From a virus: DNA of 23,456 nucleotides. Positions 101 through 22,820 of the stretch are shown piece after piece. Both the position numbers and the translations under genes were made by a program. Under the pieces are notes generated by a model. The model was not told the origin of the DNA, did no database searches, and saw nothing but the letters and a program-made list of their open reading frames with translations. The stretch is taken from the IMG/VR virus record IMGVR_UViG_3300049736_000651, positions 1 to 23,456 of that record. One strand, 5' to 3'. How positions within the stretch are numbered: position 1 is the stretch's first letter; each line of letters begins with the position of its first letter.

Positions 101-1032
101 AGCATTTAGAAGAAACACCTTGGTTTATTTGCGATAAAGAAGACACAAATTATTGTGCTTATGTGGATACAGACTCAAATTACTTTAATGCTGAACCAAT
201 ACTTTTACATTTATTTCCTAATTTTGAAAATTTATCTGATGAAGAAAAAGATGGTAACTTAGAAAAAGTAGCTTTAGCTTATCAAGATATAATAACAGAA
301 GATTATAATAGGTTAGCTCGTGAGACCTTCAACGTCACGAATCACAGACTTGAAATGAAAACTGAATGTGTTATTCGTTCAGCTTATTTCAGGGCAACAA
401 GAAGATACGCACAATGGATTACAAAGCAAGAAGGTATAAACAAAGAAGTCTTGGATATCAAAGGTCTAGAGTTTATGAAAGCAAACTTTCCACCTATTTT
501 GGGGGAATTTTTCAACGATATCCTTCAACAAGTTCTAAAGGGTGAGAAAAAGGATAATATAATAAAACAGATTAAGGATTTTAAACATAAAATAATTAGT
601 GGTAAAATACCATTAACTAAATTAGGTAATCCTACTGCTGTAAAAAAATTACAAAAATATTCTGGACATTCAGCTAGAGCTGGAGAATTATTTACTGAAA
701 TATTAAAGGGAGCACCTGCACCTGTTCGTGCAGCTATTCGTTATAATGATTTACTTAAATTATGGAAATTAGATAGAAAATATAATCTTATTACTATGGC
801 TGATAAAGTTAAATGGATCTATCTAAAAGATAACCCATATAAAATAGAGGCACTAGCATTTTTTGATTATGACATGCCAGATAAGATTAAGGAATTTTTA
901 AATGCTTATGCTGATAGACAAAAAGTATTTGAATCTATATTATTAAATAAATTAGAAGGATTTTTTAGTGATTTACAATGGAGTTTAGATTTAAACCCCT
1001 ACATAAATGCATTTGATTCCTTTGAGGTATAA
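97..1032 (+). CDS. 43: Family B DNA polymerase, C-terminal fragment (palm motif C and thumb)
   Basis: This is the C-terminal third of a T4-type replicative DNA polymerase, 311 residues if started at the ATG at 97. The catalytic motif C, YVDTDSNYF, lies at about residues 22-30 and supplies the metal-binding aspartates. The thumb follows, and the protein ends in FDSFEV, which resembles the clamp-binding tail of T4/RB69 gp43 (LFDMFDF). The exonuclease domain and palm motifs A and B are absent. A TTG start at 91 is possible, but an in-frame TAG at 88-90 rules out anything earlier. The ATG at 97 overlaps the stop of the preceding gene. The rest of the polymerase must be encoded upstream, so the gene is split or interrupted. 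Family assignment is firm; how it becomes a working enzyme is not visible here. Confidence 0.9.
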   Translation: MKHLEETPWFICDKEDTNYCAYVDTDSNYFNAEPILLHLFPNFENLSDEEKDGNLEKVALAYQDIITEDYNRLARETFNVTNHRLEMKTECVIRSAYFRATRRYAQWITKQEGINKEVLDIKGLEFMKANFPPILGEFFNDILQQVLKGEKKDNIIKQIKDFKHKIISGKIPLTKLGNPTAVKKLQKYSGHSARAGELFTEILKGAPAPVRAAIRYNDLLKLWKLDRKYNLITMADKVKWIYLKDNPYKIEALAFFDYDMPDKIKEFLNAYADRQKVFESILLNKLEGFFSDLQWSLDLNPYINAFDSFEV

Positions 1033-1051
1033 AGAAACTTACGTATATTGA
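1021..1051 (+). promoter_or_regulatory. Promoter A, before the clamp gene
   Basis: TTTG at 1021-1024, 19 bases, then TATATTGA at 1044-1051, preceded by CG. If the second box is centred at -7, transcription would begin at about 1055, right at the gp45 ATG (1056). The -33 box lies inside the last codons of the polymerase fragment. Confidence 0.6.
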
Positions 1052-1055
1052 CGAT

Positions 1056-1778
1056 ATGATAAACAAAAACACACTACAATCTTTTATTGCAAAATATTAC
1101 ATTAATGGATTAAATAATCAGGTTAAATGGAGAATCAAGGATAATACATTAACTGTTTATGCTGGTGAATCAGGTAGGGTATGTAAAGTAGTTTTAGATA
1201 ATTTTGAATTTGAGGATTGTGAAGTAGGAGTATTCGATACAAATAAATTAATAAAACTTTTAGCTATTACAAATGGTGATTTATTATTATCATCTGAAAA
1301 ACAAGGTGAATTACATACCAAATTAAACATATCAGATACTAATTTTGAACTAGCTTACGCTTTAGCTGATACACTTATCATGGGAAAAACACCTTGGTAT
1401 AGTGATCCAGATGAAGGTTTTGAAATTGAATTAGACTTAGAAAGAGAAGAAGTAGATAATTTAATTAAAGCTAAAAATGCTTTAAATGATGTAGACAATA
1501 TGTTAATTCAATCAACTAAAGATTTAGATGGAAATTTAGTTTGCCAATTTTTATTTGGTGATAATACAGGATTTTCAAATAAAATAGAGTACCAATTACA
1601 AGGAATTATAAAAGATAGTGATGTAAAATTACCATTTAATTCTGATATATTTAAAGATATTTTAAATGCAAATAAAGATATAGATAATTGTTCTATTAAA
1701 ATCTCTAAACAAGGGATGATGAAAATTGCATTTGAAGGAGATATAAACAGTATTTATTATATAGCACGAAACGAATAA
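1056..1778 (+). CDS. 45: Sliding clamp (DNA polymerase processivity factor)
   Basis: T4 gp45-type clamp of 240 residues, close to the 228 of T4 gp45. It would form a ring around DNA that tethers the polymerase and, in T4, also activates late transcription. The evidence is overall pattern: an N-terminal start MINKNTLQSFIAKY, the 'V.DTNKLIKLLAITNGD' stretch at about 59-75 that matches the gp45 'YDLNGFLGILSLVNDDA' region, and a closing 'KIAFEGDINSIYYIARNE' like T4's 'AKFEGEHANYVVAL'. It follows the polymerase fragment after 23 bases that hold promoter A. The clamp-loader genes gp44 and gp62 lie 4-6 kb downstream, a looser arrangement than in T4. The ATG falls almost on the predicted transcription start, so the message may be leaderless. 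Confidence 0.85.
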   Translation: MINKNTLQSFIAKYYINGLNNQVKWRIKDNTLTVYAGESGRVCKVVLDNFEFEDCEVGVFDTNKLIKLLAITNGDLLLSSEKQGELHTKLNISDTNFELAYALADTLIMGKTPWYSDPDEGFEIELDLEREEVDNLIKAKNALNDVDNMLIQSTKDLDGNLVCQFLFGDNTGFSNKIEYQLQGIIKDSDVKLPFNSDIFKDILNANKDIDNCSIKISKQGMMKIAFEGDINSIYYIARNE

Positions 1779-1788
1779 ATTAAAAACT

Positions 1789-2469
1789 ATGAGTAAAATT
1801 AAAAGAGTAGATTCTGCACCAGATAGCCAGTGGGGTCAAATTTATACTAATGAATTTAAACCTAATCCTGAACCAAAACCTAGAATGTGGATTGTAGACA
1901 ATTTCTATGAAGATCCAGATGCTATTAGGGAATTTGCCTTAAAACAATATTACTTTGATGACCCAGGTTATTTAGGTATGAGAACCAGAAAACAATATTT
2001 ATTTGATGGGGTTAAAGAAAGATTTGAACAGATTATTGGCTCAAAAATTGTTGGTAGAGAAATGTGGGAAGATTATGGTATGAATGGAAGATTCCAATCT
2101 GCTAGCTCAGGTACTTCTTTAGTTTACCATTGTGACCAACAAATGTGGGCAGGAATGATTTATTTAACTCCAAATGCTCCTGTTGCTTCAGGTACAAGAT
2201 TGATGCAACATAAAGAAACTAAAATAAGACACAGTCAAGAACCAGTAAATGGTAAAAATATTGATCATGCTTTTAATCAACATACATTTGTTGATCCTCA
2301 TCCTTATGAAGATGTTGATGTTGCAGGAAATGTTTACAATAGATTAGTTATTTTTGATGCTAAATGTATTCATGCAGCTCAGGATTATTTTGGGTGGGAT
2401 ATTGAGTCTGGTAGATTATGGCATATGTTTTTCTTTGATACAGAATTATTGCCAGGTCAAATAAAATAA
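1789..2469 (+). CDS. 2-oxoglutarate/Fe(II) oxygenase-like protein (DUF6445-like), copy 1
   Basis: A 226-residue protein with the layout of an Fe(II)/2-oxoglutarate dioxygenase. A likely iron triad is H114-x-D116 (VYHCDQ) with H195 (CIHAAQDYFG), and R209 is placed to bind 2-oxoglutarate. It resembles the DUF6445 type common in marine phages (WIVDNFYEDPDAIREFAL at 34-51, YLTPNAPVASGT at 125-136). A related protein is encoded at 22225-22788. Both share the YLTP.AP..SGT, VGN/AGNVYNR and H-A/S-A-.-.-Y-F-G blocks. The substrate is unknown; a glycan, a protein side chain or a nucleobase are all possible. It begins 10 bases after gp45 without a Shine-Dalgarno site and probably shares its transcript. 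Confidence 0.7.
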   Translation: MSKIKRVDSAPDSQWGQIYTNEFKPNPEPKPRMWIVDNFYEDPDAIREFALKQYYFDDPGYLGMRTRKQYLFDGVKERFEQIIGSKIVGREMWEDYGMNGRFQSASSGTSLVYHCDQQMWAGMIYLTPNAPVASGTRLMQHKETKIRHSQEPVNGKNIDHAFNQHTFVDPHPYEDVDVAGNVYNRLVIFDAKCIHAAQDYFGWDIESGRLWHMFFFDTELLPGQIK

Positions 2470-2501
2470 TTTGGAGAAGTGAATTTTCCTTATTATATTG
2501 A
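2470..2501 (+). promoter_or_regulatory. Promoter B, before hsp20
   Basis: TTTG at 2470-2473 starts directly after the oxygenase stop codon. Twenty bases later is TATATTGA (2494-2501). A start near 2504 would give the hsp20 message a leader of about 85 bases, holding a UUCG hairpin. The downstream bases ATATGTATAAT also occur after promoter F (8826-8836). Confidence 0.55.
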
Positions 2502-2558
2502 TATGTATAATAAACAAAACATTGTAGCTAGGGCACAAGTTGTGTTTTTAAATTAACC

Positions 2559-2573
2559 GGGAGCTTCGGCCCC
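2559..2573 (+). terminator. UUCG-capped hairpin in the hsp20 leader
   Basis: GGAGC-TTCG-GCCCC forms a short GC-rich stem closed by the stable C(UUCG)G tetraloop, with one A-C mismatch. It stands out in very AT-rich surroundings. T4-like phages use C(UUCG)G hairpins between genes as terminators or RNA-stabilising ends. No T-run follows it (CATAAAATAAAATG does), so a leader element that protects or controls the hsp20 message is as likely as a terminator. Confidence 0.45.
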
Positions 2574-2588
2574 ATAAAATAAAATGAT

Positions 2589-3011
2589 ATGAGTACATTA
2601 GAAATCTTTGAAAGGCATATAAGTCCTTTCGACATCCTTTTTAGGAATCACTTTAAATCTGACAGCACATTTCAACCTGTTGGAAATTTCAAACAACCAC
2701 ATCCCGTTAATATTTTTTTCAATGATGCAGGACTTCATTTTGAAGTAGCTTGTACGGGTCTTACTAAAAAAGACATTGTAGTAGATATTGAAGGGGATAT
2801 TTTAAAAATTAGTTATACTAAACTAGAAGATGAGAAATTCCATGATGGAATGATTCATAATGGTTTATCTAAAAAATCATTTGATTTAAGATACAAAATA
2901 GCACCTAAATTTGATTTAAGTGGTATTGATGCTATTTTAGAAAATGGTCTATTAGATATTTTTATACCTTTAGCTGATGAAGCTAAACCAAAATCTATTA
3001 AGATTAAATAA
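2589..3011 (+). CDS. hsp20: Small heat-shock protein, Hsp20/alpha-crystallin family
   Basis: A 140-residue small heat-shock protein, an ATP-independent holdase that keeps unfolding proteins soluble. The alpha-crystallin domain covers about residues 38-128. It includes FFNDAGLHFEVACTGLTKKD, the strand KISYTK, and the family's L-E-N-G-L-L-D-I signature at 117-124. The C-terminal IKIK (137-140) is the I-x-I motif that links subunits in the oligomer. Hsp20 genes are frequent in marine T4-like phages. Here it sits just before groES and groEL, making a folding cluster. Start ATG at 2589: the preceding ATG at 2584 is out of frame. No Shine-Dalgarno is visible; the leader contains a UUCG hairpin. Confidence 0.88.
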   Translation: MSTLEIFERHISPFDILFRNHFKSDSTFQPVGNFKQPHPVNIFFNDAGLHFEVACTGLTKKDIVVDIEGDILKISYTKLEDEKFHDGMIHNGLSKKSFDLRYKIAPKFDLSGIDAILENGLLDIFIPLADEAKPKSIKIK

Positions 3012-3021
3012 AAGTTTTACT

Positions 3022-3051
3022 GAAAAAACGTGTCCTAGCAAATGTTTTTTC
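3022..3051. promoter_or_regulatory. Inverted repeat filling the spacer of promoter C
   Basis: GAAAAAAC (3022-3029) and GTTTTTTC (3044-3051) are perfect reverse complements. The pairing continues two more steps inward (one G-T), leaving a loop of about 10 bases. The left arm touches the -33 box and the right arm abuts the -7 box of promoter C. It could be an operator for a repressor, or in RNA a weak T-rich terminator for the hsp20 transcript. Confidence 0.5.
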
Positions 3052-3060
3052 GTATATTGA
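3029..3060 (+). promoter_or_regulatory. Promoter C, before the groES-groEL operon
   Basis: CGTG at 3029-3032, 20 bases, TATATTGA at 3053-3060, with TTTTTTCG directly before the second box. The predicted start (about 3064) coincides with the ATG at 3065. The -33 box keeps only the TG of the TTTG consensus. Confidence 0.55.
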
Positions 3061-3064
3061 CGTT

Positions 3065-3370
3065 ATGAAAAAAAGCAAACAACTTACAATTATAGAAGAT
3101 CCTAAATTGGATCCTTACTTTATAACAAAGGATGACCATTGTTATACTGTACAAGAACGTATTAAACCTAATGCTGACCATTTTAGAACAAAAGGTAAAG
3201 GAAAGGAATATAGTAAACCCCAAACTTACCATCCCAATTTGGGAAGTGCATTAGAATCTATTTCAAAAATGCAATTGCATACGAAAGAAAATTATACATC
3301 TATTGATGATGTTATAGAAAATTATAAAAAAATCGAATCAAATATTAAACAATACATTACACAATTATGA
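3065..3370 (+). CDS. Unknown 101-residue protein leading the chaperonin operon
   Basis: I do not recognise this protein. It is 101 residues long, soluble, rich in lysine, and has no signal peptide or membrane segment. Visible blocks are an N-terminal 'DPYFITKDDHCYTVQE' at about 16-31 and 'YHPNLGSALESISKMQL' at about 55-71. A charged, probably helical tail (IDDVIENYKKIESNIKQY) follows. It is the first gene after promoter C, with an almost leaderless ATG. Its TGA overlaps the groES start (ATGA at 3367-3370), which argues for translational coupling with the chaperonin genes. A role with the chaperonin is conceivable but nothing in the sequence shows one. Confidence 0.7.
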   Translation: MKKSKQLTIIEDPKLDPYFITKDDHCYTVQERIKPNADHFRTKGKGKEYSKPQTYHPNLGSALESISKMQLHTKENYTSIDDVIENYKKIESNIKQYITQL

Positions 3371-3723
3371 ACTTAGAAGCACTATTTGACGCAGTTATTG
3401 TTAAACCTATTGAAAATGAGGAAGTTACTTATGGGGGTATTATTGTACCAGACATGGGTAAAGAATTAAATGAAGTAGGTGAAGTTATAGCTGTAGGTCC
3501 TGGAAAGCATACACATTCAGGAGAATTTTTACAAACAATTATTAAGGTGGGAGATAGAATTGTCTTACCAACTATGGGATTCACTAAACTACAATTTGAT
3601 GGTGAAGAATATTATGTTGGTCCTGAGAATCAAATCTTAGCCAAAGTAACTGTACCAGTAGAAGATGTACTGGCGGAAACAGAAGTAAGTGAAATTGATA
3701 AAGAACATTTAACAGATATATAA
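3367..3723 (+). CDS. groES: GroES-type co-chaperonin
   Basis: A 118-residue co-chaperonin that would form the heptameric lid of the GroEL cage. The core covers residues 4-94: LFDAVIVKPI at the start, a mobile loop with GGIIVPD at 23-29, the GEVIAVGPG turn at 38-46, and VGDRIVLP at 61-68. The hydrophobic IIV of the mobile loop is what contacts the GroEL apical domain in the E. coli pair. It is about 20 residues longer than bacterial GroES (97) because of an acidic tail after residue 94. T4's own co-chaperonin gp31 is much more diverged; this one still looks like cellular GroES. It starts inside the stop of the upstream gene, and groEL follows 2 bases after its stop. Confidence 0.92.
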   Translation: MNLEALFDAVIVKPIENEEVTYGGIIVPDMGKELNEVGEVIAVGPGKHTHSGEFLQTIIKVGDRIVLPTMGFTKLQFDGEEYYVGPENQILAKVTVPVEDVLAETEVSEIDKEHLTDI

Positions 3724-3725
3724 AA

Positions 3726-5372
3726 ATGATTATGAAAAAAGTAGAATTTGGCAAACAAGCCAGAAAAAATTTAATTAAAGGTATAGATATTTTAGCTGAT
3801 GCTGTAGTTTCAACTTTAGGACCTAACGGAAGAAATGTTGTTATAGGTAAGGGTATTATTGACCCACCTCAAAGTACTAAAGATGGTGTTACAGTTGCTA
3901 GAAATATTGTATTAAAAGAAACTAATCAAGAACTTGGAGTTCAATTAGTTAAGTATGCTGCAATTAAAACAGCAGATAAGGCTGGTGATGGTACAACTAC
4001 ATCAACATTATTGGCTAGAGAAATCATTAAAAATGGTTTAACAGCTCTAGATAATAAAGAAAATGCAGTTCAAATCAAAAGAGATATTGACCAATCAGTA
4101 AAAGAAGTTGTTTCACAATTGAAAAAATTATCTGAGGATATAGGTGAAGAAAATCAATTAGAACAAATTGCTACAGTTTCAGCTAATAATGATAATGAAG
4201 TAGGAAAATTAATTGCTACTGCAGTAGATAAAGTTGGTCAACAAGGTGTAGTTCATATTGAATCATCTAGAACAGCAGATAATTATATTGAAACTGTGGA
4301 AGGAATGCAATTTGCTAGAGGTTATAAATCTCCATATTTTGTTACTAACAACAATGATATGACTTCAGTACTTGAAAATCCTGCTATTCTTATTGTTGAT
4401 GGTAGATTATCTTCAGTTAAAGAATTACTTCCAATTTTAGAAGCAGTAGGTGCTCAAGGTAAATCTTTATTAATAATTGCTGAAGATATAGATAATGAAG
4501 CATTAGCTACTCTTATAGTTAATAAAATGAGAGGTACATTAAGTGTTTGTGCTGTTAAAGCTCCCGATTTTGGAGATAGAAGAAAACTTATCTTAGAAGA
4601 TATAGCTATTACTACAGGTGGTACTGTATTTAGTAAAGATAAAGGAATGAAGTTAGACAAATTTAGTTGGGATTGGTTTGGTGAAGCTAGAATAGTAACT
4701 GTAGAAAAAGAACAAACTACTATAGTTGATGGTAAAGGTGAAGTTGAAAAAATTGAATCAAGAATTGAAGAAATTAAAGTTCAACTTGATAAATCAAAAA
4801 CACCTTATGAAACTGAACAGTTACAAAATAGATTAGCTAAATTTGTAGGTGGTGTCGCTATTATTCATGTAGGTGGATTTACAGAAACTGAAATGAATGA
4901 AAGAAAAGATAGAGTTGATGATGCATTACATGCTACAAAAGCTGCAATTGAAGAAGGAATACTCCCAGGTGGTGGTGTTGCTTTACTTTATGCTAGAGAA
5001 GCTATTAAAAATAAAGAAAGTATTGGAGCTGAGATTGTATATAAAGCATGTGGTAAACCATTTGAACAAATATTACTTAATGCTGGTTATGATTCAACTG
5101 AAGCACAATTACTAGGTAAATATAAACTAGTAGATTCAGGTAATGATCATTGGGCAGGAATTCACATTGATGAAGGAAAAGTAATAGATTATAAGGAAGC
5201 AGGAATTATTGATCCAACTAAAGTTACTAGATTAGCATTACAAAATGCAGCTTCAGTAGCAGGTACAGTTTTATTAACAGAATGTACTATTATTGAAGAT
5301 AAAGATAGTGATGAGTTTAAAGATAGAGGTTATGAAAATAATGGAGTACCTCAATCAGGACTTGGAATTTAA
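3726..5372 (+). CDS. groEL: GroEL-type chaperonin, full length
   Basis: A complete 548-residue group I chaperonin, the same length as E. coli GroEL, which folds proteins in an ATP-driven double-ring cage. ATP-site residues are present: TKDGVTVA at 51-58 (D53), the GDGTTT loop at 87-92 (D88), and the hydrolytic aspartate at 399 in VDDALHAT. The signature AAIEEGILPGGG is at 406-417. Apical hydrophobic residues that bind substrate and GroES are kept (ELLPILEA at 233-240, ALATLIVNK at 259-267). The usual C-terminal GGM repeats are missing; the protein ends NNGVPQSGLGI. Start is ATG at 3726 or 3732 (MIMKK). It follows groES by 2 bases. A full GroEL in a phage is uncommon; the gene is intact and has the same base composition as its neighbours. 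Confidence 0.95.
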   Translation: MIMKKVEFGKQARKNLIKGIDILADAVVSTLGPNGRNVVIGKGIIDPPQSTKDGVTVARNIVLKETNQELGVQLVKYAAIKTADKAGDGTTTSTLLAREIIKNGLTALDNKENAVQIKRDIDQSVKEVVSQLKKLSEDIGEENQLEQIATVSANNDNEVGKLIATAVDKVGQQGVVHIESSRTADNYIETVEGMQFARGYKSPYFVTNNNDMTSVLENPAILIVDGRLSSVKELLPILEAVGAQGKSLLIIAEDIDNEALATLIVNKMRGTLSVCAVKAPDFGDRRKLILEDIAITTGGTVFSKDKGMKLDKFSWDWFGEARIVTVEKEQTTIVDGKGEVEKIESRIEEIKVQLDKSKTPYETEQLQNRLAKFVGGVAIIHVGGFTETEMNERKDRVDDALHATKAAIEEGILPGGGVALLYAREAIKNKESIGAEIVYKACGKPFEQILLNAGYDSTEAQLLGKYKLVDSGNDHWAGIHIDEGKVIDYKEAGIIDPTKVTRLALQNAASVAGTVLLTECTIIEDKDSDEFKDRGYENNGVPQSGLGI

Positions 5373-5392
5373 TAAATAATTTCGTATATTAT
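5361..5392 (+). promoter_or_regulatory. Promoter D, before the gp44 operon
   Basis: CTTG at 5361-5364, inside the last codons of groEL, then 20 bases and TATATTAT at 5385-5392, preceded by TTCG. The predicted start falls at about 5396, one base before the ATG at 5397. Confidence 0.55.
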
Positions 5393-5396
5393 AGTT

Positions 5397-5663
5397 ATGT
5401 CAAAAAAGAAGGTTATAGAAGAGAATATTTTAATTGCTCGCAGGGTACCACCAGGTGATAAGTGGAGACTTATTGCAAATGAACCTGATGGTCCTATCCA
5501 TAAAACGCTTACTGATGCCTTAGAAGCTTATATGGTGAAAACTGGCTTTAAAGGGGAGTATAGGTTAGCTCCCCTAAAAAGTGAGTTATATGCTATTTCT
5601 ACAACTGAAGAAGAAGTAAAACCTGAACCAATTAAACAATATTCAATTTATGGAGAATACTAA
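5397..5663 (+). CDS. Unknown 88-residue protein leading the clamp-loader operon
   Basis: Not recognised. It is a small soluble protein of 88 residues with no membrane segment. Residues 7-62 look like a compact alpha/beta domain (ILIARRVPPGDKWRLIA, then LTDALEAYMVKTGF), and the acidic and proline-containing tail 'TTEEEVKPEPIKQY' is probably flexible. It is the first gene after promoter D, with a near-leaderless start. Its end overlaps the gp44 start by 14 bases, so it is probably translated together with the clamp loader. Confidence 0.7.
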   Translation: MSKKKVIEENILIARRVPPGDKWRLIANEPDGPIHKTLTDALEAYMVKTGFKGEYRLAPLKSELYAISTTEEEVKPEPIKQYSIYGEY

Positions 5664-6564
5664 TCATAGTTTACTAGTAGAAAAATACAGACCAGTAAAA
5701 TTAAAAGATTATGTTGGTAATGAGAATTTAAAATCTTCCATTGCATCTCAATTATATAATAATGATATCCAAAATTTTATATTTTATGGACCTGCTGGTA
5801 CAGGTAAAACTACATTAGCTAAATTAATAGTTAATAATTTAGACTGTGACCATGTTTATATAAATGCTTCAGATGAAAGAGGTATTGAAACTATTAGAGA
5901 TAAAGTATCTAGCTTTGCTTCCGTAGCATCATTTAAACCACTTAAAGTAGTTATATTAGATGAAGCAGATTTTCTTACTATACAAGCCCAAGCATCATTA
6001 CGTAATATAATAGAAACATTCTCCAGAACTACTAGATTCATTTTAACTTGTAATTATGTGGAACGAATAATAGATCCACTACAATCAAGATGTCAAGTAT
6101 TAAAAGTAGTTCCACCAAGCAAAAAACAAGTTGCTTACCATTTATCTTGGATTATGGATCTAGAAAAAATTGCATTTGATATGGACAGTTTAGGATCCAT
6201 AGTATTACAATTTTATCCCGATTTAAGAAAATGTATTAATACAATTCAAGCTAATACAGTTAATGGTGAACTTAAATTAGATAAATCAGTTTTATTTTCA
6301 TCTAATTATATAGATGGAATTATAGATGAATTAAAGAAATCTAAACCAAATTTTAAAAATATTAGACAAATAGTTGCTAACGCTAATACAGATGATTATG
6401 AAGATCTATTTAGAACTTTATATGATAAAGCAAGTGATTATATGCCTGGTAAAGAAGGTACAGTAGCTATTTTAGTTAATGACCATCAATACAAAGCTAA
6501 TTTCCGAATTGATAAGGAAATTAATATAATGAGTTTAATTAATAATTTAATAAATAATAAATAA
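5650..6564 (+). CDS. 44: Clamp loader ATPase subunit (gp44)
   Basis: A 304-residue AAA+ ATPase, matching T4 gp44 (319). Four copies with one gp62 would open the gp45 ring and place it on primer-template DNA. It has an N-terminal EKYRP box at 11-15, Walker A GPAGTGKTT at 47-55, Walker B VILDEAD at 101-107, sensor 1 TCN at 133-135, and the SRC arginine-finger motif at 146-148. The C-terminal collar domain covers about 200-304. The ATG at 5650 is chosen because it gives the family's N-terminus; it overlaps the previous gene. The gp62 subunit follows after one small gene. Confidence 0.93.
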   Translation: MENTNHSLLVEKYRPVKLKDYVGNENLKSSIASQLYNNDIQNFIFYGPAGTGKTTLAKLIVNNLDCDHVYINASDERGIETIRDKVSSFASVASFKPLKVVILDEADFLTIQAQASLRNIIETFSRTTRFILTCNYVERIIDPLQSRCQVLKVVPPSKKQVAYHLSWIMDLEKIAFDMDSLGSIVLQFYPDLRKCINTIQANTVNGELKLDKSVLFSSNYIDGIIDELKKSKPNFKNIRQIVANANTDDYEDLFRTLYDKASDYMPGKEGTVAILVNDHQYKANFRIDKEINIMSLINNLINNK

Positions 6565-6565
6565 T

Positions 6566-6838
6566 ATGAGAGGAAGTGCAGGTGGTGCTACACCACAACA
6601 ACCACAAGTAAATGTTGATTTAACATCAACTAAACCAGTTAAAAATTCTAAAGGTACAGACATTTGGAAGTCAAGAGTTATCCTTAGAAAAATTTCAAAA
6701 TACGTTGCAGGTACTGAAAGCGATGCTATCATGCCTATTCCAGTTTTTGTTGATCCTTATACTGATAAGATATTAGCAGATGGATTACCAATGGAGTTAA
6801 GAGAAGAATTAGCTGATTCAAGTATTTTATCTGAGTAG
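6566..6838 (+). CDS. Unknown 90-residue protein between gp44 and gp62
   Basis: Not recognised. The first 25 residues are Gly/Gln/Pro/Thr rich (RGSAGGATPQQPQVNVDLTS) and probably disordered. The rest looks folded: GTDIWKSRVILRKISKYVAG, then 'MPIPVFVDPYTDKILADGLP', then an acidic helix. The 'FVDP-T-KILADGLP' wording suggests a conserved phage family but I cannot name it. It starts one base after the gp44 stop and ends one base before gp62, so it lies firmly inside the clamp-loader operon. There is no signal peptide or membrane segment. Confidence 0.7.
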   Translation: MRGSAGGATPQQPQVNVDLTSTKPVKNSKGTDIWKSRVILRKISKYVAGTESDAIMPIPVFVDPYTDKILADGLPMELREELADSSILSE

Positions 6839-6839
6839 A

Positions 6840-7253
6840 ATGGTTAAAAATGTTTGGGATTGGTTAAAACAGATTAATTCAATTAAATCCGATCCCTCAT
6901 CATTCTCAGATAAAGATTGGGAACTTTGGAATAGTTATATGATTCATAGATTTATGTCTATGAATAGTGACTTTTTGGAGTTAGTAAATGAAGCTCAGAA
7001 AATTCACCCTCAAAATAAGGAACAAATATACTCAATTTATAGAGAATATATTCCTAAGAATAATAAATGGAATAAGTATATTAAATCTAATATCAAACAA
7101 CAAAAAACAGAGTTATTAGTATATTTATCTAAATATTGGGAATGTTCACAAAATGAAGTAAGAGAATATTTGAACTTTTTGGGAGATGACGAAATTTTTC
7201 GTATATTGGAGCGTATGGGAATACAAAAAAAAGAAATAAATAAATTATTATGA
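6840..7253 (+). CDS. 62: Clamp loader small subunit (gp62)
   Basis: A 137-residue protein that fits the short gp62 of marine T4-like phages (T4's own is 187). It opens with a helical WDWLKQINSIKSD segment. A central region rich in K, W and Y follows, and the C-terminal part carries 'YWECSQNEVREYLNFLGDDE', which resembles the 'YFGYSNEKAKQALKILSDEQ' pattern of cyanophage gp62. It would be the single non-ATPase subunit of the gp44/gp62 loader. Position after gp44 supports the call. Sequence conservation in this family is low, so context carries much of the weight. Promoter E lies within its last 25 codons. Confidence 0.75.
   Translation: MVKNVWDWLKQINSIKSDPSSFSDKDWELWNSYMIHRFMSMNSDFLELVNEAQKIHPQNKEQIYSIYREYIPKNNKWNKYIKSNIKQQKTELLVYLSKYWECSQNEVREYLNFLGDDEIFRILERMGIQKKEINKLL
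7178..7209 (+). promoter_or_regulatory. Promoter E, inside the end of gp62
   Basis: TTTG at 7178-7181, 20 bases, TATATTGG at 7202-7209, preceded by TTTTTCG. It lies wholly in gp62 coding sequence. A start near 7213 would give the 7250 gene a leader of about 37 bases. An in-frame gp62 ATG at 7215 sits at the leaderless distance. Confidence 0.5.
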
Positions 7254-7477
7254 AATTAGAAGTTTACAAATTTTTAAAATCCGAAGCAGAGGCGGATAAA
7301 AATAAAGCTCTAGCTAGTGTTGAATTATTAACAAATAATCCTGCAGGTATAGGTGATCACTCAACAAAAGATTATTGGGACAACTGTACTGAAGCACTTA
7401 AATTACTTGCTTCATCTGAAGAAAGATTAGAGATTTTAGAGAAATATTTTAAACCTAAAGCACAAGTTAATGGGTGA
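7250..7477 (+). CDS. Unknown 75-residue helical protein
   Basis: Not recognised. The 75 residues look almost all helical and charged: 'LEVYKFLKSEAEADKNKALA' at 3-22, then 'YWDNCTEALKLLASSEERLE' at 39-58, with two likely paired helices. There is no cofactor or catalytic motif. Its ATG overlaps the gp62 stop (ATGA at 7250-7253), and its end overlaps the DUF1599 gene by 8 bases. Promoter E gives it a possible separate start of transcription. Confidence 0.65.
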   Translation: MKLEVYKFLKSEAEADKNKALASVELLTNNPAGIGDHSTKDYWDNCTEALKLLASSEERLEILEKYFKPKAQVNG

Positions 7478-7892: not shown

Positions 7893-7895
7893 GTT

Positions 7896-8801
7896 TTGGC
7901 TAAAAAAATACCTAAAATAGTTAAGGAAATTCAAAAGAATCTTCCTGAGAAGTTAAACTATGCATTTCAAAAGAATGTATCTTATTCTCAATTGACAATG
8001 TACAAGCAATGCCCACATAAATGGAAGTTGCAGTACAAAGATAAAATCAATCAAAGAGAACCTAATATTTACATGATTTTTGGTATTGCTATTCATGAAA
8101 CAATTCAAGAATATTTAACTGTATTTTATGGTAAGTCTAAAGTTGCGGCACAAGCATTAGATTTAGAAGAAAAATTCCAAACAGTATTGATGGATGAATA
8201 TCAAACTCAATACAAGAAAAATAATGAAACTCATTTCTCATCAGCTGTTCAAATGAGAGAATTTTACGAAGATGGAGTTGAAATACTTAAATTCTTTAAG
8301 AAAAAAGTGGGTGGTTATTTTTCAAAACGAGGTACTCATTTAGTAGGAATTGAGTTACCTATTCTTAATCGTCCTAATAAAATGTTAAATAATTTATTTT
8401 ATAGTGGATTTTTAGATGTTGTTTTATATAATGAAAATAGTGATACATTTGATATTATTGATATAAAAACAAGTACTAAAGGTTGGGGTGATAGAATGAA
8501 AAAAGATGAAGATAAACAATTTCAATTAATATTATATAAGCAATACTTCTCAGAACAGTTTGGTATTCCTTTAGATAAAATTGATATTAAGTATTTTATA
8601 GTTAAAAGAAAAATCTGGGAAAAAAGTGATTGGCCCCAAACTAGAATACAAGAATTTAAACCCGCAAGTGGAAAAATAAAATTGAATAAAGCTAAAAAAG
8701 CTATTACTGATTTTATTAATGAAGTATTTAATTCAAAGGGTGAAATTAAAGATATGAAATATCCTTGTAAGTGTGGACAATGCCAAACTATTTGGACTTA
8801 G
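7896..8801 (+). CDS. PD-(D/E)XK nuclease, RecB/Cas4-like, with four-cysteine pattern
   Basis: A 301-residue nuclease of the PDDEXK_1 type. It has an N-terminal SYSQLTMYKQCPHKWKL block at 29-45, GIAIHETI with H67 and E68, E153 in GIELP, D174 in GFLDVV, the catalytic IDIKT at 188-192 (D189, K191), and the QLILY motif at 210-214 (QxxxY). C39 together with C291, C293 and C296 matches the one-plus-three cysteine layout of iron-sulfur nucleases such as Cas4 and AddB. It probably cuts or trims DNA during replication or recombination. The start is TTG at 7896, three bases after the previous stop; the first in-frame ATG falls inside the conserved block, at M35, and is too late. Confidence 0.85.
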   Translation: MAKKIPKIVKEIQKNLPEKLNYAFQKNVSYSQLTMYKQCPHKWKLQYKDKINQREPNIYMIFGIAIHETIQEYLTVFYGKSKVAAQALDLEEKFQTVLMDEYQTQYKKNNETHFSSAVQMREFYEDGVEILKFFKKKVGGYFSKRGTHLVGIELPILNRPNKMLNNLFYSGFLDVVLYNENSDTFDIIDIKTSTKGWGDRMKKDEDKQFQLILYKQYFSEQFGIPLDKIDIKYFIVKRKIWEKSDWPQTRIQEFKPASGKIKLNKAKKAITDFINEVFNSKGEIKDMKYPCKCGQCQTIWT

Positions 8802-8822
8802 ATATTTATTTTTATATATTTA
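8791..8822 (+). promoter_or_regulatory. Promoter F, before the small RHH-like gene and sugar island
   Basis: TTTG at 8791-8794 in the last codons of the nuclease gene, 20 bases, TATATTTA at 8815-8822. A start near 8826 leaves a leader of about 42 bases before the ATG at 8868. The bases ATATGTATAAT at 8826-8836 repeat those after promoter B and contain a second TATAAT-like box. Confidence 0.5.
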
Positions 8823-8867
8823 CATATATGTATAATCAAATATAAATGTTATTAAATAATTAAGATT

Positions 8868-9056
8868 ATGAGTAATAAAAAACCAATGACACTTACAAGT
8901 GTAAAAGTTCAAGCTGGCCTATTCGAAAATTTTAAAATTGAATGTGTAAAGAGAAAATTCTCATTCCAAAAACTTGCTGATAGAGCAATCTTTTTGTACC
9001 TTACAGATGAAGATTTTAGAAAACAAATAACAAACCAAACTAATATAGAACTTTAA
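8868..9056 (+). CDS. Small ribbon-helix-helix-like protein
   Basis: A 62-residue protein with a short strand (LTSVKVQAG), a helix (LFENFKIECVKRK), a turn, and a second helix (SFQKLADRAIFLYL). This is the outline of an Arc/MetJ ribbon-helix-helix DNA-binding protein, which would act as a dimer on an inverted repeat. It stands alone under promoter F, at the head of the sugar island. It could regulate that island or the phage promoters, but this is inference. Without a profile search the fold call is moderate. Confidence 0.6.
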   Translation: MSNKKPMTLTSVKVQAGLFENFKIECVKRKFSFQKLADRAIFLYLTDEDFRKQITNQTNIEL

Positions 9057-9067
9057 ACAAAAAATTA

Positions 9068-11817: not shown

Positions 11818-11819
11818 TT

Positions 11820-12263: not shown

Positions 12264-12266
12264 ATT

Positions 12267-17204: not shown

Positions 17205-18103
17205 TGTTACAGTTTAAGTTATATAAAGATAAAATTTACAATTCAGGTGAAGTTGAAAAACTAGGCATAGCAGTAGAAAAACTTTTACCTGAATATACAT
17301 TACCAAAAGATTATAGTGGTTGGTTTCCATTTACACGTTTATGTTTTTCTTTAGGTGATTGGGCTATTATCAGTGGGTTACCTGAGGCATTAAAAATAAA
17401 ATATCCTAAAATAAAAATTGCTTTACCATCTAATGAATATTTAACTAAAATTTTTGATAATTTGGATACTTGGAGTTATGGTAATAATAATCCATTAGAT
17501 TATTTAGATATAATATTTAAAAATAATCCTTATATAGACTATAGATTTAACCCAGGAGATTTTGATATAATTTATACGGATCATGATAGAGCTTATACAA
17601 ATGATATTAACATACCTTTAGCTGAACAAATATTATTAAGATTTGGTTTAAGTCAAGATGAAGTTAATAATGTTGACTGTAGGCCTAATTTATTTTTTGA
17701 TAGAGATGAAATACCAAATCCTGACATTAAAGATGAATATGGGTGTTTATTATTTGCTTCTAGAATAGATAAATTAAAAGGCAGATGGGATGATAAAAAC
17801 TTGATTAAAGAAGCTAGGAAATACAAAGATATTCCCGTATATTATTATAGTGAATTTGATTTGAAAGATACTGAATGGGATGAATTATTTCCTATTCGTT
17901 ATGATTTATCAAGATTAAATTTAAGAGAACAATTAGTTATTAAATCTAGAGCAAAATTTAATATAGGTTATCAAGCAGGAATGAATGATGCTGTTAGTAG
18001 ACATTCTAATAATATTATTTTAACTCCTTATGATAATGTAAAAGAAAATATAATAAGAAATGTTAAATACATCCATCTTGATGGAAAAATAAAACAAATA
18101 TAA
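17204..18103 (+). CDS. GT9-like (heptosyltransferase-type) glycosyltransferase
   Basis: A 299-residue protein with the outline of a GT-B transferase of the GT9/heptosyltransferase type. Near residues 48-76 is 'CFSLGDWAIISGLPEALK' followed by KYPKIKIALPSNEY, which matches the glycine-containing first loop and second strand of GT9. The C-terminal half begins near 'GCLLFASRIDKLKGRWDD'. It ends with 'KSRAKFNIGYQAGMNDAVSR' and 'NNIILTPYDN', the donor-site part where GT9 proteins have S/G-x-x-H/A-G. Identity to the family is low, so a related GT-B class is possible. It shares its start base with the sulfotransferase stop (TAATG). Confidence 0.65.
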   Translation: MLQFKLYKDKIYNSGEVEKLGIAVEKLLPEYTLPKDYSGWFPFTRLCFSLGDWAIISGLPEALKIKYPKIKIALPSNEYLTKIFDNLDTWSYGNNNPLDYLDIIFKNNPYIDYRFNPGDFDIIYTDHDRAYTNDINIPLAEQILLRFGLSQDEVNNVDCRPNLFFDRDEIPNPDIKDEYGCLLFASRIDKLKGRWDDKNLIKEARKYKDIPVYYYSEFDLKDTEWDELFPIRYDLSRLNLREQLVIKSRAKFNIGYQAGMNDAVSRHSNNIILTPYDNVKENIIRNVKYIHLDGKIKQI

Positions 18104-19569: not shown

Positions 19570-20366
19570 TAAGTTTAATTATACCAACATATAGAAATCC
19601 TGATTATTTACATTTATGTTTACGATCAGCTATTGAACAGCAAAAAAATAAAAATGAAATTATTGTAGCTGTAGATGGGTTTATGGAAGAATCTAGAGAT
19701 GTTCTAGATGATTTTATTGATGATATAAAAATTTTAGATTTAGGTCATAATCAAGGCATGCAAACAGCCCTTAATTTAGCTGTTATGAATGCCACTAATG
19801 AAAAAATTTGTATTATTAACGATGATAATGTTTTATGTAAAGGTTGGGATGAAATAATTGAATCGGAATTAAATGAAAAACAAGTATTAACTATAAATCA
19901 AATTGAACCTACTGGACCTGGTATATTTAACTTCCCAGTTAAAGATTTAGGACGTACTCCAAAAGATTTTAAGTATGATGAATTTATAGAATATGAGTTA
20001 AGATTAAGAGAAAAAGATATATTAACTAGAGATGGAGGAATATTTCCATTTGCAATGTATAAAAAAGATTATATGATTGTAGGTGGATTTGATACAATGT
20101 ATCAATCACCCTTTATTTGTGATTGGGATTTTTTCCTAAAATTAGATCTTAATAATATTGCTTTTTATAGAACACATTCAGGACATTTTTATCATTTTGG
20201 TAGTACAGCTACTAAAAATGGTAAAGAAGGAGAAAAATTTAGAGCTACTGAAGGACCAGCAGCTGAAATATTTATGTATAAATGGGGTATTCCACCTAGG
20301 TTATTTAAAAATTTATCACATAACCCAAAGGACAATAAAGTAGTAAAAGGTATTAAATATGAGTAA
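19566..20366 (+). CDS. Glycosyltransferase family 2 (GT-A fold)
   Basis: A 266-residue GT2 protein. MISLIIPTYRNPDYLHLCL at 1-19 is the classic GT2 opening, AVDGF at 35-39 (D37) contacts the nucleotide, and CIINDDNVLCKGWDE with D86-D87 is the metal site. 'GGFDTMYQSPFICDWDFFLK' is the usual acceptor-side block. The ATG at 19566 is preferred to a TTG at 19533 because it places the IIPTYRN strand at the N-terminus and gives the ATGA coupling seen elsewhere in this cluster. The 3' end overlaps the epimerase start by 8 bases. Confidence 0.9.
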   Translation: MISLIIPTYRNPDYLHLCLRSAIEQQKNKNEIIVAVDGFMEESRDVLDDFIDDIKILDLGHNQGMQTALNLAVMNATNEKICIINDDNVLCKGWDEIIESELNEKQVLTINQIEPTGPGIFNFPVKDLGRTPKDFKYDEFIEYELRLREKDILTRDGGIFPFAMYKKDYMIVGGFDTMYQSPFICDWDFFLKLDLNNIAFYRTHSGHFYHFGSTATKNGKEGEKFRATEGPAAEIFMYKWGIPPRLFKNLSHNPKDNKVVKGIKYE

Positions 20367-21384
20367 AAAAACAGTTTTAATTACAGGTGTAGCAGGTTTA
20401 CTAGGTAGTAGGCTAGCTGATTGGATTATTGAAAATAAATCTGATGAATATGAAGTCATAGGTGTAGATGATTTAAGTGGAGGTTATAAAGAAAACATAC
20501 ATCCAGATGTTAAATTTTGGCAAATGGATTTAGTTAACCATCCAATTGAAAATATATTTGAAGCACATAAAATTGACTATGTATATCATTTTGCTGCTTA
20601 TGCTGCTGAAGGATTATCGCCTTTTATACGTGGATATAATTATGATAATAACTTAAAGGCAACCGCTCGCATAGTTAATGAATGTATAAAAAACGACGTT
20701 AAAAGATTGGTATTTACGTCTACAATGGCTGTTTATGGTCATGGAGAAGGTGGTATATTTCATGAAGATATGATAAGAAACCCAATTGATCCTTATGGTA
20801 TTGCTAAAATGGCGTGTGAAAGAGATATTGAAGTCGCAAATGAACAACATGGTTTAGATTATTGTATAATCAGACCCCATAATGTGTTTGGTGCTAAACA
20901 AAATATTTGGGATAAATATAGAAATGTACTTGGTATTTGGATGTATTATATTTTAAATAAACAACCTATTACTATTTTTGGTAATGGTACTCAACGTAGA
21001 GCTTTTAGTTATATAGATGATTCAGTAGAGCCTTTATTTAATGCTCATTTAGAACCCAAAGCATCAAAACAAATTATTAATTTAGGAGGTACAATTGATT
21101 ATAGTATATTAGATTGTTCTATTGCCCTAAAAAATGTTGTTGCTAAAGATACAGGTAAAAGACCTGAAACAGTATTTTTAGAAAAAAGACATGAAGTACA
21201 TACAGCTGTTCCTACTTGGCAAAAGTCAGTTGATATATTAGGTTTTGAACATAAAACATCATTAGAAGATGGTTTAGCTAAAATGTGGCAATGGGCTAAA
21301 GCACAACCAATGAGAGAAAGATTTGTATGGGAAAATTATGAAATAGAAAAAGGTATATATAGTTTTTGGAAAAATAAAAAATAA
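20359..21384 (+). CDS. NAD-dependent sugar-nucleotide epimerase/dehydratase (GalE-like SDR)
   Basis: A 341-residue extended short-chain dehydrogenase. It has the NAD-binding GVAGLLG at 10-16, D37 in VDDLSGG, HFAAYAAE at 77-84, the catalytic STMAVYG at 121-127, and Y146-x3-K150 (YGIAK). The 'RPHNVFGAKQN' and 'GNGTQRRAFSYIDD' blocks are typical of UDP-glucose/UDP-GlcNAc 4-epimerases and related enzymes. It would invert or dehydrate a nucleotide sugar to feed the glycosyltransferases. It is adjacent to a UDP-glucose dehydrogenase-like gene, so a uronic-acid branch is plausible. The exact substrate is not clear from sequence. Confidence 0.9.
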   Translation: MSKKTVLITGVAGLLGSRLADWIIENKSDEYEVIGVDDLSGGYKENIHPDVKFWQMDLVNHPIENIFEAHKIDYVYHFAAYAAEGLSPFIRGYNYDNNLKATARIVNECIKNDVKRLVFTSTMAVYGHGEGGIFHEDMIRNPIDPYGIAKMACERDIEVANEQHGLDYCIIRPHNVFGAKQNIWDKYRNVLGIWMYYILNKQPITIFGNGTQRRAFSYIDDSVEPLFNAHLEPKASKQIINLGGTIDYSILDCSIALKNVVAKDTGKRPETVFLEKRHEVHTAVPTWQKSVDILGFEHKTSLEDGLAKMWQWAKAQPMRERFVWENYEIEKGIYSFWKNKK

Positions 21385-21387
21385 ATT

Positions 21388-22224
21388 ATGAATATAGGAA
21401 TAATAGGTCAAGGTTTTGTTGGTAATGCTATTTACCAAAAATTAAGTAAATATTATAAAGTATTTACTTATGATATTCAAGCTAAATTATGTAATAGTGA
21501 TTTGCCTGAAGTATTAGAAAGATGTAAAATTATATTTGTGTGTTTACCAACACCAATGAATAAAGATGGTTCTTGTAATTTAGATATATTAGATGGAACT
21601 TTAGAAGAAATTAATAGAGCAAGTAAGGAAGTAGAAGATAGAATAGTAGTAATTAAATCTACTATAATACCTGGTTCAACAGATAATTTTCAACTAGATT
21701 ATCCTTACATAGATATAGTTTTTAATCCTGAATTTTTAACTGAAGCTAATGCCGTTGATGATTTTGAAAATCAAACAAGATTATTATTAGGAGGACGTAA
21801 AAAAGCTACTACTAAAATTAAACAAATATTTTCTGCTGCATTTAGAAAAACACCTAGAATAATTAAAACAGATGCTAAAACAGCTGAATTGGTTAAATAT
21901 GTTACAAATACATTTTTAGCTACTAAGGTTTCATTTGCTAATGAAATATATCAATTATGTGAAAGCCTAGATTTAGATTATGATAAAATAATTGAATATG
22001 CTACTCTAGATCCTAGATTAGGTGATTCACATTGGGGTGTTCCAGGACCAGATGGTGATTTTGGTTTTGGAGGACATTGTTTCCCTAAAGATTTATCTGC
22101 AATAGTAGAGATAACTAAACAAAAAAACATAACTAATAATGTATTAAAAGCTGCTCAAACAACTAATAATACTGTTCGTACGAATAGAGATTGGGAAAAG
22201 ATGAAGGGCAGAGCAATCGTATAA
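21388..22224 (+). CDS. UDP-glucose 6-dehydrogenase-like protein, short form
   Basis: A 278-residue nucleotide-sugar dehydrogenase; usual members have 390-450 residues. The NAD domain (IGIIGQGFVGNAI at 3-15, FVCLPTPMNKDG at 50-61, KSTIIPGST at 90-98) and the central domain are present. Catalytic residues appear intact: E115 (NPEFLTEA), K170 and N174 (ELVKYVTNTF), and the nucleophile C231 with K234 and D235 (GGHCFPKD). The C-terminal UDP-binding domain is missing. The stop is followed at once by the next ATG and no remnant of that domain is visible. It may work on a different substrate, depend on a partner, or be inactive. A healthy epimerase gene precedes it, 3 bases away. Confidence 0.85.
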   Translation: MNIGIIGQGFVGNAIYQKLSKYYKVFTYDIQAKLCNSDLPEVLERCKIIFVCLPTPMNKDGSCNLDILDGTLEEINRASKEVEDRIVVIKSTIIPGSTDNFQLDYPYIDIVFNPEFLTEANAVDDFENQTRLLLGGRKKATTKIKQIFSAAFRKTPRIIKTDAKTAELVKYVTNTFLATKVSFANEIYQLCESLDLDYDKIIEYATLDPRLGDSHWGVPGPDGDFGFGGHCFPKDLSAIVEITKQKNITNNVLKAAQTTNNTVRTNRDWEKMKGRAIV

Positions 22225-22788
22225 ATGGCTGAATTAATTATATTAGAAGATTTTTATTCTGACCCTGATTATGTTAGAAATTATGCTCTAAATGAGTTAG
22301 AATGGCATGATAAAAAAGGTAATCATCCTGGTAGAAGATCAGATCCGGATAGACATCCATCAGTAAAAAAATTATTAGAAGATACTATACAAAAAGAAGT
22401 TACTGATTGGGATGTTGAATGGAATTATTCCAATGGTGCTTATAATTTATGTAAAGCATGGGATAAATGTTGGATTCATTCTGATTGGGGTACTACTTAT
22501 GCCTGTGTGGTTTATCTCACACCTGATGCACCTATTGAATCAGGTACTGCTTTATACAAACATAAAAAAACTGGTTATAGAGTAAGACCAGAGGATGAGG
22601 AATTAGCTAAACAATTAGATCAAGATTCTAATGATTTTACTGCTTGGGAAATGACTGATTATGTAGGTAATGTATATAATAGGGCAGTAATTTATAAAGG
22701 TAAATATTACCATTCAGCTGTACAGTATTTTGGTAATACCGATGAATATTGTAGAATGCACCAAACATTTTTCTTCTCCACGAAATAA
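22225..22788 (+). CDS. 2-oxoglutarate/Fe(II) oxygenase-like protein (DUF6445-like), copy 2
   Basis: A 187-residue protein related to the one at 1789-2469 but about 40 residues shorter. Shared blocks include ILEDFYSDPDYVRNYAL at 6-22, VYLTPDAPIESGTALYKHK at 96-114, VGNVYNR at 147-153, and H-S-A-V-Q-Y-F-G at 163-170. The predicted iron ligands H85-x-D87 and H163 and the 2-oxoglutarate-binding R177 are all kept. Substrate unknown; hydroxylation of a glycan, protein or base would each fit. It starts right after the dehydrogenase stop, at the end of the sugar island. Like copy 1 it is followed at once by a promoter with AATAATTTGGA. Confidence 0.7.
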   Translation: MAELIILEDFYSDPDYVRNYALNELEWHDKKGNHPGRRSDPDRHPSVKKLLEDTIQKEVTDWDVEWNYSNGAYNLCKAWDKCWIHSDWGTTYACVVYLTPDAPIESGTALYKHKKTGYRVRPEDEELAKQLDQDSNDFTAWEMTDYVGNVYNRAVIYKGKYYHSAVQYFGNTDEYCRMHQTFFFSTK

Positions 22789-22820
22789 TTTGGATACCTG
22801 AAGAAGGGTTCGTATATTTA
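22789..22820 (+). promoter_or_regulatory. Promoter H, before the GIY-YIG gene
   Basis: TTTG at 22789-22792 directly follows the oxygenase stop. Then 20 bases, and TATATTTA at 22813-22820, preceded by TTCG. It is the closest of the set to the Bacteroidota TAnnTTTG box. A start near 22824 leaves a leader of about 17 bases. Confidence 0.6.

Follow-up and report, generated by a model that had tools for sequence, protein, structure and literature searches.

Eight sites on the plus strand of the viral record IMGVR_UViG_3300049736_000651 have one geometry, an upstream [CT][TG]TG box and a downstream TATATT, and the six in which CG directly precedes TATATT very probably belong to a real class of phage promoters. 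The window, i.e. the whole stretch analysed, is the entire IMG/VR record (23,456 bases, GC content 28.7%), and all 30 of its genes are on the plus strand. The explanation preferred here, held with moderate confidence, is that the sites are promoters of the prereplicative class (early and replication genes) in a clade of T4-related phages akin to Immutovirus; the enzyme reading them would be RNA polymerase with the primary sigma factor of the host, as in T4 early transcription, and a divergent gp55-like sigma factor would then direct the late promoters. The common geometry, the specificity for strand and gene, the conservation before fixed genes, the constraint on codons, the near absence from structural genes and the different single-box element (NATATTTATAA) before structural genes of relatives are read directly from the sequence. 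The element has the form [CT][TG]TG(G), exactly 20 bases (19 at gp45) and CG-TATATT, the latter mostly within TTCGTATATT in relatives. Direct reading confirmed all eight sites of an earlier description of this DNA (hereafter the sequence-only reading), with the boxes and spacers given there and with CG in all except the sites at 2470 and 8791. Distances below are in nucleotides (nt).

1021-1049, plus strand: putative promoter 1, TTTG 1021-1024, 19-nt spacer, CG 1042-1043, TATATT 1044-1049; precedes gp45, whose ATG at 1056 is the predicted +1
2470-2499, plus strand: weaker candidate promoter 2 without CG, TTTG, 20-nt spacer, TATATT from 2494; 89 nt before Hsp20
3029-3058, plus strand: putative promoter 3, CGTG, 20-nt spacer, CG, TATATT from 3053; precedes the gene 3065-GroES-GroEL operon, ATG 3065 being the predicted +1
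5361-5390, plus strand: putative promoter 4, CTTG, 20-nt spacer, CG, TATATT from 5385; precedes the gene 5397-gp44 operon, ATG 5397 being the predicted +1
7178-7207, plus strand: putative promoter 5, TTTG, 20-nt spacer, CG, TATATT from 7202; within the 3' end of gp62, 42 nt before gene 7250
8791-8820, plus strand: weaker candidate promoter 6 without CG, TTTG, 20-nt spacer, TATATT from 8815; 47 nt before gene 8868, which encodes 62 amino acids
12216-12245, plus strand: putative promoter 7, CGTG, 20-nt spacer, CG, TATATT from 12240; within the 3' end of gene 11820, before glycosyltransferase gene 12267
22789-22818, plus strand: putative promoter 8, TTTGGATACC...GGGTTCGTATATT, of full early-type form, with TTTG and TATATT from 22813; precedes gene 22841 and fits the extended form TTTGGNTACC-N9-GTTCGTATATT of relatives

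Counted from the last base of TATATT, the next annotated start is, in order, 6, 89, 6, 6, 42, 47, 21 and 22 nt away. The statement that the sites lie shortly upstream of a start codon thus holds only loosely: each precedes a start by 6-89 nt, yet those at 7178 and 12216 overlap the 3' ends of preceding genes. A seventh copy of the core CGTATATT in the window, at 17836 and outside the list of the sequence-only reading, is intragenic and 259 nt before the next start. The window is AT-rich and has 47 plain TATATT on its plus strand, which would favour a chance similarity picked by eye. However, the pattern [TC][TG]TG-N19/20-TATATT occurs 8 times forward and never in reverse, against a mean of 0.99 and a maximum of 5 in 200 dinucleotide shuffles; the comparison with shuffled sequence, proposed as a check in the sequence-only reading, thus speaks for the two-box model. 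The version with CG and a 20-nt spacer has 5 matches (shuffle mean 0.00), and TTCGTATATT alone also has 5 (shuffle 0.02). Together with the strand bias and the orthologue and codon tests below, the shuffles bring the probability of chance close to nil and refute it for the sites with CG; they do not do so for 2470 and 8791, which stay weak as promoters. The E. coli sigma70 promoter is TTGACA-N17-TATAAT, and the T4 late promoter, read with gp55, is TATAAATA. The sites resemble neither, as the sequence-only reading had held: a YKTG(G) box, a spacer of 19 or 20 nt and TATATT are read directly, and a two-box site is of another class than the T4 late promoter, the late element here being NATATTTATAA (see below).

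In relatives the element has the strand-specific consensus YKTG(G)-N19/20-(TT)CG-TATATT. Counts of CGTATATT in 80 gp44 loci of IMG/VR, the best 80 among the matches listed, are 238 forward and 7 reverse, and those of TTCGTATATT are 179 forward and 1 reverse. Position relative to starts, the other check proposed earlier, gave an equally clear result: of the 245 copies of CGTATATT in these loci and the window, 217 end at most 60 nt before the start of an open reading frame (ORF), 8 more at most 100 nt before one, 14 lie farther away and 6 have no ORF downstream. Forty non-redundant sites mostly have [CT][TG]TG[GT] at -24 to -20 and TT preceding CG. In a set of 126 non-redundant sites, drawn from loci and long contigs, 56 have TTG at -23, 61 have TGG at -22 and 83 have GG at -21; at other offsets the counts are 0-8, except for a second GG peak at -27 (23 sites). 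In the window, all eight sites have [CT][TG]TG at 19 or 20 nt from TATATT, as is expected of a -33 box lying about 19-20 nt from the -7 element. The extended 20-base form is present in at least 119 IMG/VR stretches; the long contigs were picked for containing it, and G042 among them has only one TTCGTATATT on each strand. In ten phage records the extended two-box pattern was matched (forward/reverse) 8/0 in Flavobacterium phage immuto, 5/1 in Mel-JY01, 1/0 in RM378 and 0/1 in Panino, with 0 in the other six, and a shifted control, in which the gap between box and TTCG is one base longer, had 1 match in the ten and 0 in immuto.

Conservation was followed at orthologues of 21 of the 30 window genes, with CGTATATT sought at most 90 nt upstream. 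The other nine genes lie between 14073 and 22224, gene 22841 yielded no orthologue that could be tested, and the orthologues are related and hence not independent events. Five genes have CGTATATT upstream in 198 of their 254 orthologues; for the 15 other tested genes the count is 0 of 736. CGTATATT precedes gp45 in 26 of 34 orthologues (24 of these 26 exactly 6 nt from the ATG), gene 3065 in 48 of 55 (6 nt from the ATG in 5 of these; the two-box form precedes 53 of the 55), gene 5397 in 51 of 64 (6 nt in 27, 5 nt in 4 and 0 nt in 20), gene 7250 in 58 of 73 and the glycosyltransferase gene 12267 in 15 of 28. The 19-nt spacer of the gp45 site is itself conserved, none of 33 orthologues matching the 20-nt form. 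As for the sites without CG, the two-box form is found upstream of 7 of 44 Hsp20 orthologues (site 2470; the four shown are close relatives) and of only 3 of 44 orthologues of gene 8868, so that site 8791 is poorly conserved. At the GroES-operon site (window 3029-3039 and relatives), CGTGTCCTAGC is conserved beyond the box, and TGTCCTAG lies at most 60 nt before ORFs in 53 of the 80 loci; this conservation suggests an extra function of the spacer.

Where a site overlaps coding sequence, synonymous codon choice is constrained, and rare codons are kept. The gp62 tails have the codons CGT-ATA-TTR in 64 of 64 cases with R-I-L, so that Arg is always CGT there, against 15.3% CGT overall; the other 16 of the 80 tails are without R-I-L. 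All 61 anchored intact sites have TTG as the gp62 Leu codon at the upstream box, as do all 15 left after removal of near-duplicates; the background is 5.6% overall and 21% elsewhere in gp62, and three intact sites appear mis-anchored in this count. The S-Y-I tails of gene 11820 have TCG for Ser in 18 of 26 cases, the overall share being 2.7%. The upstream box reads CGTGAY in all 18 of the TCG-bearing tails and the same or nearly so in 7 of 10 other scored sequences, which retain CGTG.

The element precedes early and replication genes and not structural genes, as is expected of a T4-type early promoter, with exceptions in immuto, G036 and G037 that are given below. G018 has no site within a 25.7-kb structural block; where sites do occur in it, they are upstream of a polA-like gene, SSB-RecA, genes around DpdA, GroES, gp44 and the gene next after gp43. 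G037 has 168,099 bases and, in view of a 127-base terminal overlap, is probably complete. It has TTCGTATATT 43 times on one strand and 0 times on the other. Its 44 CGTATATT fall into two groups, 29 within an initial 18.7 kb that consists mostly of small ORFs and 15 past 116.9 kb, and the stretch between them has none. In its first 18.8 kb, 15 of 22 gaps of at least 60 bases contain a site; the site-free middle holds structural genes and also SSB, RecA, helicase and reductase. In 80 gp23 loci (1.14 Mb) the forward/reverse counts are 1/1 for TTCGTATATT, 23/19 for CGTATATT and 431/78 for TATTTATAA. Ninety-eight non-redundant upstream sites in these loci read NATATTTATAA[TC]AAAA and have no upstream box. 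NATATTTATAA is a different, single-box element before structural genes of the relatives, and is likely a late promoter.

Late control looks T4-like, because this AT-rich single-box element at structural genes is accompanied by a sigma-region-2-like protein in three genomes. The candidate gp55-like family, whose members lie 3-4 kb before baseplate genes, is as follows.

L088:28174-28869: immuto gp118, sigma-region-2-like
L420:14862-15596: sigma-region-2-like candidate
L418:4818-5615: sigma-region-2-like candidate

Neither PF04542 nor phrog_234 matched anything in 28 records, which were immuto and 27 contigs; PF04542 found 10 of 14 controls, and phrog_234 matched no control genome, so its blank result shows no absence. 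A gp55 profile of 7 phage proteins matched the G036 candidate with E 4e-5 and the immuto protein weakly (E 0.017), and the G037 copy was found by blastp. In family scans Sigma70_r2 matched the G036 protein only, with E 0.0024 and under the curated cut-off, and neither the immuto nor the G037 protein; phrog_234 gave 0.04 for the G036 and 0.5 for the immuto candidate. Immuto gp118 and the G036 and G037 proteins are 44-49% identical, and relatives are present in 595 of 600 IMG/VR stretches among the matches listed. Profile-profile comparison of the candidate with gp55 gave 47.6% probability and E 0.00019. Foldseek on the model had no match below E 1. The structural model built for one relative (mean pLDDT 78.9) matches sigma region 2: sigma factors stand at the top of its VIA list, with 1or7_B at Z 9.5 and an rmsd of 2.6 over 91 residues, although Z below about 13 is weak for helical models. 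The gp55-like candidate would serve the late class.

In the proposed mechanism the upstream box would act as a -33 element and TATATT as a -7 element, CG at -14/-13 would be an added contact in place of the host TG at -6/-5, and transcription would start about 12 nt after the first T of TATATT. In Flavobacterium johnsoniae, many starts predicted from RNA-seq are 4-5 nt past the octamer, i.e. 12-13 nt from its first T (PMC6847099). With a start at about +12, gp45, gene 3065 and gene 5397 of the window would get leaderless mRNAs, as their sequences suggest. The promoter reading has independent support here, since 24 of the 26 gp45 sites keep the exact 6-nt distance that matches the F. johnsoniae spacing from -7 to start. 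Leaderless transcription from all sites was considered and rejected: of 277 sites with a box, no more than 37 have the 6-nt distance, and in 25 the distance is 0 nt. It is very improbable that the element acts instead in RNA, or as a binding site for a repressor or for replication. Such a role would suit the 11 of 136 non-redundant sites that overlap terminator-like hairpins; it does not suit two boxes at fixed spacing, on one strand and upstream of genes, or the constant distance at gp45. In these 11 a hairpin with 6 or more pairs lies between -38 and -4; shuffles gave a mean of 0.4 and a maximum of 2 such sites, and the stretches upstream and downstream gave 3 and 1. Since 11 sites so far exceed the shuffles, promoters nested in terminator-like hairpins are a minor but real layout. 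In some of them the upstream box is within the hairpin, in loop or stem, and a T-run leads into TTCG. Hairpin-nested sites occur in L033, L037, L060, G013, G018, G037, G036 and immuto.

The sequence-only reading had matched the sites to the ordinary host promoter, TTTG and TAnnTTTG, which leaves CG incidental. The spacing of 19-20 nt in the Bacteroidota -33/-7 promoter counts for this, and the Mel-JY01 sites often read TATATTTG. The identity of the boxes also agrees with the published -33/-7 layout (PMC6847099). Like that promoter, the phage sites have a TTG-containing box about 20 nt upstream of TAnnTT, and a start 4 nt after the octamer is plausible. Promoters of F. johnsoniae hardly vary at T-12, A-11, T-8, T-7, T-6 and G-5, and their -33 box stands out much less (PMC6847099). 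The phage sites differ in being mostly without G-5, in a variable T-6, in the added CG at -14/-13 and in an upstream box that is strong, not barely evident. In the window family T-6 is present in 15 of 61 sites and G-5 in 10 of 61, so that the near-invariance of the two is not found in the phages; Mel-JY01 is nearest to the host consensus (T-6 in 7 of 11, G-5 in 9 of 11). The G of TTTG is not retained in the window family, G037 or immuto, and CG is held even in codons, as in the Ser TCG above. Plain TAnnTTTG in phage intergenic regions was counted (sense/antisense) 9/11, 2/10, 0/9 and 10/22, compared with 60/23 in 13 host loci; the sense-strand shortage is not read as avoidance, the regions being A-rich. 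Nor is the same element found before host genes: 8 Flavobacteriaceae genomes have 93 TTCGTATATT against 245 of the reversed control, and a larger set, given below, has no excess either. The full match to the host promoter therefore fails, and the suggestion that the CG extension is phage-specific stands. The element is, on these comparisons, not simply a host promoter, and the host-type reading, already disfavoured by the genome counts, is improbable. The CGTA core and the spacing also resemble those of some extracytoplasmic function (ECF) sigma promoters; an ECF-sigma promoter was rejected, there being no excess in host genomes.

If the promoter class is real, it is somewhat probable that the host primary sigma factor reads the sites; it is the likeliest reader, a phage factor being possible. 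T4 early promoters offer a parallel (PMC2988021): they are read by the host polymerase, are many and uniform in strand, precede small early-type and some replication genes, and are conserved beyond the host core elements. They closely match the host sigma70 elements, in contrast to the element here, which departs from the host consensus (PMC2988021).

A number of observations weigh against the explanation preferred here. The 77 intergenic TAnnTTTG sites of 21 Flavobacteriia loci (380 kb) are without CG and have a weak upstream box, and these loci contain TTCGTATATT once; in 395 Bacteroidota genomes TTGG-N15-TTCGTATATT has 18 matches in 17 genomes, as many as the reversed control (18). G-5 is lost in G037 (T-6 in 36 of 43, A at -5 in 39 of 43) and in immuto (T-6 in 8 of 12, A at -5 in 11 of 12). 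G036 mostly has a different upstream box, GGA[AC] at -27, a form common in that contig and found in 20 of the 126 non-redundant sites. No strand bias of TTCGTATATT was found in five other Bacteroidota phages (DAC16 0/0, elemo 0/1, Calle_1 0/0, phi14:2 0/0, Panino 1/1). Two immuto sites, at 128570 and 130566, fall within the structural region, and G036 has three CGTATATT in or near head genes (45083, 45595, 51527), while the SSB-RecA-helicase-reductase genes and gp45 of both G036 and G037 are without a site. In 20 of 51 gene-5397 sites the ATG directly adjoins TATATT, and a start at +12 would miss it. The gp62 Leu TTG is also retained in 11 of 18 scored tails that lack an intact CGTATATT, so that no clear co-variation of the boxes is seen. 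Finally, Mel-JY01 (PP395634.1), deposited as a Microcystis phage and thus for a cyanobacterium, and rich in Shine-Dalgarno (SD) sites, has the element. Its gp23 is 54% identical to that of immuto, and the element stands before the gene preceding RecA, before a gp44-like gene and elsewhere, often as CTTGCATA...CGTATATTTG. Either the host assignment of Mel-JY01 or the link of the element to the Bacteroidota sigma factor needs revision.

Several of these points would be explained if the same promoter class were recognised through a specificity factor made by the phage or delivered by the virion (a sigma factor, or a protein that redirects the host one), an alternative that is less probable but deserves weight. 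It would account for the departure from the host consensus and for the presence in phages of apparently different hosts, including Mel-JY01 with its different translation signals; CG is absent from host promoters and not in excess in the 395 genomes, and plain TAnnTTTG is not in excess in phage intergenic regions. A possible DNA-binding partner is the conserved 62-residue protein of gene 8868 (immuto gp182), which by eye is ribbon-helix-helix-like. Against such a factor, the dense use of the element among small early-type ORFs would demand its presence at injection. The Sigma70_r2 search over the 28 records, immuto included, was blank, though it also missed the weak gp55-like candidate of immuto, and that candidate, placed before baseplate genes, fits the late class at least as well. 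Doubtful, and a shade less probable still, is a wider scheme in which early specificity is owned by the phages across the whole clade, on hosts with different translation signals, through a virion-delivered or immediate-early factor, followed by the gp55-like sigma factor with NATATTTATAA late promoters, some early promoters being nested in terminators. Gene 8868 itself (8868-9056) has a mean identity of 85% among 44 relatives and resembles immuto gp182 by eye; it has no Pfam or PHROG family at E 0.01 and is a possible phage regulator.

A search of the literature for the element gave no report among the matches listed, as judged by title and the start of the abstract, so an earlier report is possible. 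In contigs of uncultured viruses this strand-specific 10-base tag, with its box at a fixed distance, marks early genes and some genes of replication and orients them. Exact start sites and leaderless mRNAs are predicted from it and can be checked in the cultured phage immuto. Why an early promoter should deviate from the consensus of the host is a sharp question that it raises. With the element come a divergent late-sigma candidate and a likely late promoter.

The phage is T4-like, as had been proposed. The window holds gp43, gp45, gp44 and gp62 and no head genes; gp20, gp21, gp23, sheath and tube genes are found in relatives. Family searches also placed an Hsp20 gene in the window, and Rfam and tRNA scans of it gave no match. 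The main genes are as follows.

97-1032, plus strand: gp43, family B DNA polymerase, C-terminal half of a split gene (phrog_262, E 1.3e-43, profile 565-842); the N-terminal half is an ORF of its own in relatives
1056-1778, plus strand: gp45 sliding clamp (phrog_223, E 8e-6)
3367-5372, plus strand: GroES (3367-3723) and GroEL (3726-5372)
5650-7253, plus strand: clamp loader block with gp44 (5650-6564), gene 6566 and gp62 (6840-7253) (phrog_168, E 1e-76; phrog_225, E 2.2e-12)

The nearest phage GroEL to that of the window is from Flavobacterium phage immuto (58%). Window and immuto have in common the gene order GroES-GroEL ... PD-(D/E)XK nuclease, two glycosyltransferases, a small gene, GT2 and aminotransferase, and longer relatives and immuto have in common gp20, gp21, gp23, sheath, RecA, a DnaB-type helicase and ribonucleotide reductase. 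The reported lack of SD sites was borne out: SD-like 4-mers are upstream of 0 of 28 window genes, compared with 6% of random places. Their share before genes is 2% in G037, 2.9% in immuto, 7.1% in G036 and 3.1% in the Flavobacteriia loci, and in two contrast phages 47% (Pelagibacter phage HTVC008M) and 31% (Mel-JY01). A Bacteroidota host, as suggested in the sequence-only reading, is likely, because SD sites are missing and the gene order and nearest phage GroEL point to immuto; the two-box form alone is no proof of such a host, since it is also present in the SD-rich Mel-JY01. An alignment scan of genome contigs, meant to find the host by GroEL, gave 80 loci among the matches listed, from many phyla and at 48-52% identity; Bacteroidota are common among them, which is not decisive. 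A single-protein GroEL scan of genome contigs found no relative. The gp43 gene is split in the window (97-1032) and in G013, G018, G026, G007, G015 and G027, with an N-terminal ORF of 566-583 amino acids, a C-terminal ORF of 310-311 amino acids and at least one small gene between; in G036 it is a single gene of 909 amino acids. Genes like DpdA, QueC, QueD and QueE and a GTP cyclohydrolase gene in G013 (L171-L172) and relatives suggest 7-deazaguanine modification of the DNA.

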